DNA from: Streptomyces durmitorensis
GTDB taxonomy: Bacteria; Actinomycetota; Actinomycetes; Streptomycetales; Streptomycetaceae
DNA: 64,000 nt
NCBI RefSeq assembly: GCF_023498005.1
Contig: NZ_CP097289.1
Location: 4,960,001-5,024,000 of the forward strand
Direction of reading: 5' to 3'
Position numbers and translations under genes: made by a program
Notes under the pieces: generated by a model
The model's database searches: none
Seen by the model: the letters and a program-made list of their open reading frames with translations, nothing else
What the model was told of the DNA's origin: nothing
In this document: positions 34,613-48,753 of the stretch, in pieces
How positions within the stretch are numbered: position 1 is the stretch's first letter
Layout of the letters: every line of letters starts with the position of its first letter

Positions 34613-34640
34613 GCAACGTTAGTGCCCGGTGAGGCACTGG

Positions 34641-34725
34641 CGGAGGATACGAGATTCGAACTCGTGAGGGGTTGCCCCCAACACGCTTTCCAAGCGTGCG
34701 CCCTAGGCCACTAGGCGAATCCTCC
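34641..34725 (-). tRNA. tRNA-Ser (anticodon GGA)
   Basis: 85 nt. Acceptor GGAGGAT/ATCCTCC with discriminator G, anticodon loop CTTGGAAAG, long variable arm (TTGGGGGCAACCCC) and T-arm ACGAGTTCGAATCTCGT. No encoded CCA. Reads UCC/UCU codons. Confidence 0.97.
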
Positions 34726-34863: not shown

Positions 34864-34869
34864 GGGCGT

Positions 34870-34958
34870 CAGCCCCTCACGTGGCGCTATCTGACTGAAC
34901 TCCCCCAGGGCCGGAAGGCAGCAAGGGTAGGTTGGCTCTGGCGGGTGCGTGGGGGGCG
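34870..34958 (+). ncRNA. ffs: Signal recognition particle RNA (small bacterial SRP / 4.5S)
   Basis: Closing stem GCCCCTCACGT (34872-34882) pairs with GCGTGGGGGGC (34947-34957). The apical domain IV sequence GGGCCGGAAGGCAGCAAGGG is the conserved Ffh-binding element with its asymmetric and symmetric loops. The position directly upstream of dnaX is the usual one in Streptomyces. It forms SRP with Ffh for co-translational membrane targeting. Confidence 0.95.
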
Positions 34959-34993
34959 CTTTGCGTTCGCGGTATGTGTTGTCAGTGGGCGCC

Positions 34994-47894: not shown

Positions 47895-48002
47895 GAGAAG
47901 AGCGTCCCCCGGCCCCGGGCGCCGGAGCAGTGCGCGCTGTCACCGGCTCGCATGACAAATGTCAGAAGGCGATCAACAGAGAGGAGGCAGGGGGCACACA
48001 CG

Positions 48003-48037
48003 AAGAAGGCCCCGGTCGTGATGACCGGGGCCTTCTT
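48003..48037 (-). terminator. Terminator of the tRNA-Gly operon
   Basis: 15-bp perfect stem AAGAAGGCCCCGGTC / GACCGGGGCCTTCTT with loop GTGAT, 7 nt after the tRNA-Gly(GCC) 3' end. Confidence 0.88.
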
Positions 48038-48043
48038 CTCTGG

Positions 48044-48116
48044 AGCGAACGACGAGGTTCGAACTCGCGACCTCAACCTTGGCAAGGTTGCGCTCTACCA
48101 ACTGAGCTACGTTCGC
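48044..48116 (-). tRNA. tRNA-Gly (anticodon GCC), copy 2
   Basis: 73 nt. Same as the copy at 44129 except for two compensated base-pair changes: acceptor GCGAACG/CGTTCGC and T-stem GCGAG/CTCGT. Anticodon loop TTGCCAA. It lies 79 nt downstream of a tRNA-Gly(UCC) on the same strand and probably shares its transcript. Confidence 0.97.
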
Positions 48117-48195: not shown

Positions 48196-48267
48196 AGCGG
48201 GTGACAGGAATTGCACACTGCGCCTTCCCCCTGGAAGGGGGATGTTCTACTACTGAACTACACCCGC
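48196..48267 (-). tRNA. tRNA-Gly (anticodon UCC) with atypical D- and T-loops
   Basis: 72 nt. Acceptor GCGGGTG/CACCCGC, discriminator T. Anticodon stem TCCCC/GGGGA with loop CTTCCAG (anticodon TCC). The D-loop reads AGTAGTA, so the invariant G18-G19 pair is not intact. The T-loop reads G-TGCAATT-C instead of G-TTCRANN-C, i.e. GUGC replaces the GT-psi-C consensus. The T-stem pairs only with a bulged T (CAG-T-G / CCTG). These departures match features of the staphylococcal tRNA-Gly used for peptidoglycan bridges. It may be a non-translational tRNA or a decaying gene. Confidence 0.85.
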
Positions 48268-48393
48268 AAGACTCCGTGAGGTTCGGGCCTTTCGGCCTTG
48301 CCCCTCGGCGTGCTCCAGACTTTAGCCGACCGTCGGGGGTGCAGGTCAAGTCGGTTGCCGAGGGGCCCTCCTGGCCGGGCGTCGGCCCAGGTC

Positions 48394-48437
48394 GGTCGGC
48401 CGTCCTCCGAGCGTCGGTCGGCCGTCCTCCGAGCGTC
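48394..48437. repeat. 22-bp tandem duplication at the lsrL 3' end
   Basis: GGTCGGCCGTCCTCCGAGCG plus TC occurs at 48394-48415 and 48416-48437; the second copy touches the lsrL stop codon. Confidence 0.9.
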
Positions 48438-48753
48438 AGTTGGCCGCCTCGAAGGCTTCGTAGACCTTCTTCGGGATGCGGCCGCGCGGCGGCACGTCCA
48501 TCTGGTGCGAGCGGGCCCAGGCGCGTACGGCCGCCGGGTTCGCGGCCACCGTCGTGTGCTTGAAGGCCTTGCCGGACTTGGACTGCTTGCGGGCGGCGTC
48601 CAGGTACGGGGCAAGTGCCTTGCGCAGTTTCTTGGCATTGGTTTGATTGAGGTCGATCTCGTACGACCTGCCGTCAAGACCGAAGGCGATCGTCTCCGCC
48701 GCATCCCCGCCGTCGATGTCGTCAGAGAGAGTGACCACGACACGCTGCGCCAC
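48436..48753 (-). CDS. lsrL: Lsr2-family nucleoid-associated protein
   Basis: 105 residues, GTG start with GAAGGGA upstream. The N-terminal dimerisation domain (AQRVVVTLSDDIDGGDAAET; YEIDLNQTNAKKLRKAL) is followed by a basic linker. The C-terminal AT-hook-like DNA-binding domain contains VRAWARSHQMDVPPRGRIPK, with the Arg-Gly-Arg minor-groove motif. Lsr2 proteins silence AT-rich DNA. Streptomyces carry two paralogs; position near purSQL corresponds to the LsrL paralog as I recall it, hence the symbol with reservation. Confidence 0.85.
   Translation of the reverse strand: MAQRVVVTLSDDIDGGDAAETIAFGLDGRSYEIDLNQTNAKKLRKALAPYLDAARKQSKSGKAFKHTTVAANPAAVRAWARSHQMDVPPRGRIPKKVYEAFEAAN

Follow-up and report, generated by a model that had tools for sequence, protein, structure and literature searches.

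Staphylococcus possesses non-proteinogenic tRNA-Gly species that carry a UCC anticodon and a GUGC T-loop. Streptomyces, for its part, has the developmental tRNA-Leu(UUA) encoded by bldA, which is the reader of a rare codon. For the glycine tRNAs, the precedent in Staphylococcus aureus (PMC4052509, PMC9976931, PMC3656896) includes two reported changes in the T-stem, one of them A51-U63 in place of G51-C63, and in staphylococcal tRNA-Gly the GG at positions 18-19 is described as being replaced by UU or CU (PMC4052509). EF-Tu has been reported to read three base pairs of the T-stem (PMC5409826, PMC9976931), and, according to a further report, U73 protects tRNAs of this kind against DTD (PMC6097841). 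The diversion of aminoacyl-tRNAs from the ribosome to the wall has been described as somewhat unclear in most instances (PMC4052509). No report of such a tRNA in Streptomyces was found in the open-licence literature, a search that older RNA sequencing work would escape.

The window analysed here is a stretch of 64,000 nucleotides of the 9.86 Mb genome of Streptomyces durmitorensis (G000:C1:4960001-5024000), in which a first-pass annotation had proposed a glycine tRNA dedicated to the cell wall. The locus contains the following features:

48196..48267, minus strand: variant tRNA-Gly(UCC) gene, 72 nt, no encoded CCA, U73
48248..48254, minus strand: its D-loop, AGTAGTA, read as A14 G15 U16 A18 G19 U20 A21
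48233..48235, minus strand: its anticodon, UCC, read from the sequence
48204..48221, minus strand: its T-arm, GCAG-U-G UGCAAUU CCUGU, read from the sequence
48041..48116, minus strand: ordinary tRNA-Gly(GCC) gene downstream of the variant (ARAGORN; Rfam, 71 bits)
48002..48038, minus strand: strong inverted repeat (hairpin) beyond the GCC gene, with a below-threshold miRNA match
48319..48349, minus strand: promoter-like element, TTGACC (48349-48344), 19 nt, TAAAGT (48324-48319)
48436..48753, minus strand: open reading frame upstream, presumably encoding an Lsr2-like protein, whose synteny with the tRNAs and purQ extends to other genomes

The proposed gene is confirmed on the minus strand by a match to Rfam RF00005 of 53.5 bits (gathering score, 29), and model R1, whose building set includes the window sequence, gives it 104.5 bits. 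On the other hand, ARAGORN run on the window does not list it; this program calls the variant in 5 of 37 Streptomyces loci and overlooks it in the other 32, so that annotations relying on ARAGORN can omit the gene. Its acceptor stem is GCGGGTG/CACCCGC with T as the discriminator, its anticodon arm TCCCC-CTTCCAG-GGGGA and its D-arm GTTC-AGTAGTA-GAAC. The earlier description of a D-loop without an intact G18-G19 holds for G18, which is replaced by A (window position 48251), but not for G19, which is retained and can still meet C56. Both peculiarities described for the T-arm are present, namely the GTGC loop (48216-48213), in which U54-G55-C56 shows the change of U55 to G, and a bulged extra U in the stem (48217), which also contains the pairs G49-U65 and A51-U63.

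Rfam matches in the genome amount to 67 tRNAs, and the anticodon was read for 59 of them. The glycine tRNA genes among these 59 are GCC genes, printed in three forms of which a pair is identical except at the printed 3' end, as well as one CCC gene, one canonical UCC gene and the variant. The canonical tRNA-Gly(UCC), with a GGTTCGA T-loop, lies at G000:C1:6200864-6200934, which answers the question of whether a second UCC gene exists. The two UCC genes share the acceptor stem, the anticodon and the discriminator, whereas G18-G19, G51-C63 (replaced by A51-U63 in the variant), a UUCGA T-loop and an unbulged T-stem are found only in the canonical one. Since the canonical pattern, from the anticodon loop to the T-arm, was matched in all of the 121 Streptomyces drawn, the variant is not the sole reader of GGA. 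Like bldA, it is a non-housekeeping tRNA conserved through Streptomyces; unlike bldA, which reads its rare codon, it corresponds to a codon that already has a canonical reader.

Sixty-one genomes were searched at the DNA level, and the variant was present in 37/37 Streptomyces, as 42 copies representing 15 distinct sequences, a sixteenth string being a chance match; the expression used to collect them demanded GTGTGC, a requirement that cost none of the genomes. The unusual loop is thus not absent from close relatives. Three of these 37 genomes carry two or three tandem copies. With model R1, 249 Streptomycetaceae genomes were cleanly split into 174 with a match at E 6e-21 or better, including all 105 Streptomyces of this draw, and 75 with values of 2.5e-15 or worse, which score like ordinary glycine tRNAs. 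These 75 consist of 70 genomes of g27, a genus taken as Kitasatospora and including a genome whose FemX is identical to that of a named Kitasatospora, three genomes of g24, G087, and G197, of 71% completeness. A strict pattern requiring A18, the bulge and G55 was matched in 163 of the 249 genomes and in 12 of 17 genera (reversed control, 0), as well as in 41/41 of a further Streptomyces draw made up partly of the same genomes. Eleven genomes were positive with R1 and negative with the strict pattern: three of g15, four of g18, G069, G102, G106 and G126. Four of them were read: three, belonging to g15 and g18, combine G18 and U55 with a retained bulge, and in G069 the bulge is displaced by one pair. 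Among 35 named genomes, some of them also in the 249-genome draw, 22 have the variant, including 6/6 Streptacidiphilus and 3/3 Actinacidiphila, and 13 do not: Peterkaempfera griseoplana, Streptomyces sp. CB01881, Streptantibioticus parmotrematis and 10/10 Kitasatospora. The count for Kitasatospora is therefore 0/70, with both R1 and the strict pattern, and 0/10 in the named genomes, these sets being overlapping. Streptantibioticus parmotrematis (G087, L204) lacks the variant and G075, of the same genus group, has it; the absence could be a recent loss or an assembly gap. The variant is amplified in tandem in some lineages, with four copies in S. sparsogenes (L341) and three or four in several others (also L063, L064, L346 and L347).

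At the scale of the class, in draws whose only members of the family were Streptomyces, R1 with stricter filters rendered nothing better than E 1.0e-17 outside 28 Streptomyces among 296 genomes. A GUGC tRNA-Gly pattern was matched in 40/40 Streptomyces and in three others among 394 genomes; the strings of those three, and one extra string in a Streptomyces, are not tRNA-like, and the reversed control matched 8/394. A wider actinobacterial family of the variant is thus rejected for the genomes drawn, the variant being confined here to one family, the Streptomycetaceae.

Its conservation across Streptomyces and the family likewise rules out decay or a sequencing oddity. The odd loops, the ARAGORN miss and the absence from Kitasatospora and a few others are what a decaying or neutral tRNA copy might show, but the occurrence of the strict form in most genera, the covarying stems and a conserved promoter-like element already contradict such an origin, which we regard as extremely improbable.

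That element, a TTG[AC]NN-19 nt-TANNNT layout starting 75-90 nt before the gene, was found in 93 of the 112 distinct regions upstream of first copies, which are related to one another, compared with a mean of 0.005 and a maximum of 1 in base-shuffled regions. A general promoter scan with spacers limited to 16-18 nt found none. The normal tRNA-Gly(GCC) noticed in the same unit is indeed ordinary, and a GCC gene follows the variant in 36 of the 37 Streptomyces, the contig ending at this point in the 37th. The inverted repeat beyond it is possibly the terminator; a scan for T-run terminators found none. Elsewhere in the window, a small SRP RNA (34868-34966, plus strand) lies close to a tRNA-Ser(GGA) (34638-34725, minus strand).

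The variant has the cloverleaf and the C2-G71, C35, C36 and U73 of a functional bacterial tRNA-Gly, with a bulged T-stem, and these four elements are kept in the variant sequences. Paired cells amount to 99.4% over the 15 sequences, a value reached in 0/500 shuffles, and four pairs, in the D- and anticodon stems, are changed on both sides, which was equalled in 4/500 shuffles, although kinship between sequences can by itself, with no structure behind it, give values above those of such shuffles; further pair types were not raised (6 vs a shuffled mean of 7.2). In 42 distinct sequences from the family the UCC anticodon is always present, U34 being invariant, even though the search expression left the anticodon free. 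The bulge is also present in 42/42, as U in 40, as C in one (Streptacidiphilus melanogenes) and shifted by one pair in one. A51-U63, U8, A14, G15, G19, U54, C56 and A58 are constant in the 42 sequences; several of these letters, including G19, had been fixed beforehand in the expression, yet none of 87 tested hit loci failed, and 22 of 23 sequences taken from model coordinates agree, G19 included, the remaining one being misplaced at a contig end. Positions 18 and 55 are A/G in 39 of the 42 sequences and G/U in three, with no mixed case. Since this switch was possibly a single event, the coupling is suggestive rather than a statistical proof. The tertiary contacts besides 18/55 are kept. In Actinacidiphila alni (L342) and five g20 genomes, G48 replaces C48, giving a G15/G48 pair of the kind that has been reported in E. 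coli tRNA-Cys (PMC7566577).

When five variants were folded by energy alone, only one had the T-arm of the cloverleaf as its minimum; two, including that of the window, had a hairpin GCRC-AGN-GUGC in their minimum-energy fold and the other two folded otherwise. In the canonical control the T-arm was formed and the cloverleaf was missed elsewhere, so that the T-arm of the variant looks weak on its own. The hairpin, which can form fully in 37 of the 42 sequences, could be taken to indicate an RNA with the body of a tRNA but a regulatory or decoy function, acting as a GlyRS sink, as a source of fragments or as a switch to this structure. It is broken, however, in the other five (L167, L171, L172, L173 and L342), and these include all three sequences whose loop is GTTC, whereas 41/42 retain an intact T-stem fold and the 42nd re-forms it with a shifted bulge. 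The hairpin is thus not preferred as the main fold and, since the elements for GlyRS and the CCUGU of the 3' strand are also retained, a decoy function seems quite improbable.

Comparison with the staphylococcal tRNAs rendered several common features. In both cases a UCC species exists beside a separate ordinary UCC species, and the GUGC T-loop is shared, with G55 in the window and in 39/42 variants (U55 in three). A51-U63 is found in 42/42 of the Streptomycetaceae variants, and position 18 is altered, the discriminator is U73 and a Fem ligase is encoded in the genome. There are also differences: in the variant only position 18 is replaced, G19 being kept in 42/42; the A49-U65 of S. aureus is absent from the window, G49-U65 being kept in Streptomyces and A49 occurring in four of the 42 sequences; and the T-stem is bulged, a feature not mentioned in those parts of the S. 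aureus papers that bear on these tRNAs. The presence of an ordinary UCC gene, a T-stem expected to weaken EF-Tu binding together with an altered elbow, the GlyRS elements with U73, and FemX are what a dedicated non-ribosomal Gly-tRNA would be expected to look like. We therefore consider it somewhat probable, by this analogy, that the variant is a dedicated non-ribosomal Gly-tRNA(UCC) that is poorly passed to EF-Tu and acts as a glycine donor for FemX.

FemAB genes were found in 58 of the 61 genomes, including 37/37 Streptomyces. The co-occurrence with FemX-type ligases that was to be checked thus stands within the genus, but it is not exclusive, since FemAB is also present in 21 of the 24 non-Streptomyces genomes in which the search at the DNA level revealed no variant. 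Likewise, it was found in 20/20 Streptomycetaceae genomes tested, seven of them without the variant. The closest solved relative of the S. durmitorensis protein is 6snr, a lipid II:glycine glycyltransferase from S. aureus (113 bits); against the NCBIfam FemX model it scores 92 bits, under the cut-off of 500. In S. coelicolor, femX corresponds to SCO3904 (PMC3123327). The variant might instead donate glycine to a different enzyme that depends on tRNA, for example a Fem-like ligase acting in antibiotic production or resistance (VanK, or Orf11 of BD-12), given that users of Gly-tRNA are known in Streptomyces (PMC12945691, PMC4052509) and that two or more FemAB genes occur in many of the genomes. 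This has a slim chance of being the case, because the tRNA is present in every Streptomyces examined and S. durmitorensis has a single FemAB gene.

Kitasatospora sets a limit to the proposed wall role. The order purQ - Lsr2 - two tRNA-Gly(GCC) - purC or an ABC gene is intact in seven genomes without the variant, five Kitasatospora and two of g24, and no UCC gene lies between those markers in them. The tandem GCC pair of Kitasatospora and g24 (L339, L200-L203, L205 and L206) stands where Streptomyces have the UCC variant and a GCC gene. As Streptacidiphilus, which has the variant, has been reported to be the sister group of Kitasatospora (PMC6113628), the absence from the latter is best read as a loss. 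Streptacidiphilus has also been reported to contain DL- and LL-DAP, like Kitasatospora (PMC6113628), and because it keeps the tRNA, a simple link of the variant to the DAP isomer is ruled out. FemX is kept in 4/4 Kitasatospora examined, with 75-77% identity to the S. durmitorensis protein. In the walls of K. viridifaciens almost every stem peptide bears glycine, tri- and tetrapeptide monomers without glycine representing 0.69% and 1.00% in wild-type mycelium (PMC8092295), it being understood that these wall data come from K. viridifaciens and the absence of the tRNA was established in other Kitasatospora genomes. With FemX and glycylated walls but no variant in this genus, the variant is not required for the bridge, and FemX does not need it. 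Hence the idea of a cell-wall-dedicated tRNA retains the staphylococcal likeness, including A51-U63, in its favour, but not an indispensable function in the bridge.

The loss in Kitasatospora without loss of FemX would also fit a role outside the wall, and the variant could be a specialised translational isoacceptor which does enter the ribosome and, somewhat like bldA, decodes GGA (and possibly GGG too) either at a slow rate or under particular growth conditions. The conservation of UCC in 42/42 sequences, the anticodon stem kept paired by compensatory changes and the retained tertiary contacts are all consistent with such a function. A canonical UCC gene is nevertheless always present in Streptomyces (121/121), and A51-U63 and the bulge sit where EF-Tu has been reported to read the T-stem (PMC5409826, PMC9976931), so that we regard this alternative as possible, though rather unlikely. 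The invariance of U34 counts against the donor reading, given that GlyRS also charges the GCC and CCC species; it hints at decoding, and neither a pure donor role nor charging alone explains it. As an idea, pairing with a rare codon might keep the variant off ribosomes.

If the variant is indeed a glycine donor for the wall, it would be transcribed from its own promoter and probably charged by GlyRS, as C2-G71, C35, C36 and U73 are kept. The T-arm, with A51-U63, the bulged U and the A18/G55 elbow, would then make the handover to EF-Tu weak, and the uncaptured Gly-tRNA could be used by FemX, which adds a single glycine to the DAP of the stem peptide. In this way the wall would be provided with additional Gly-tRNA, of which the variant would not be the sole source. 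A broader proposal, which we put forward tentatively, is that Streptomycetaceae, independently of staphylococci, withdrew a glycine tRNA from the ribosome by a different device, consisting of a T-stem bulge and a rebuilt A18/G55 elbow, and that this tRNA may supply glycine to the peptidoglycan bridge, perhaps along with other glycylation outside the ribosome, Kitasatospora representing a natural loss.

Because the tRNA is conserved in a genetically tractable and non-pathogenic genus and missing from a sister lineage, the question of diversion from the ribosome to the wall can be tested directly. Moreover, the coupled change at positions 18 and 55 bears on the structure of the elbow and on recognition by EF-Tu. 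If the wall role is true, Kitasatospora would show what the wall can do without a dedicated tRNA.
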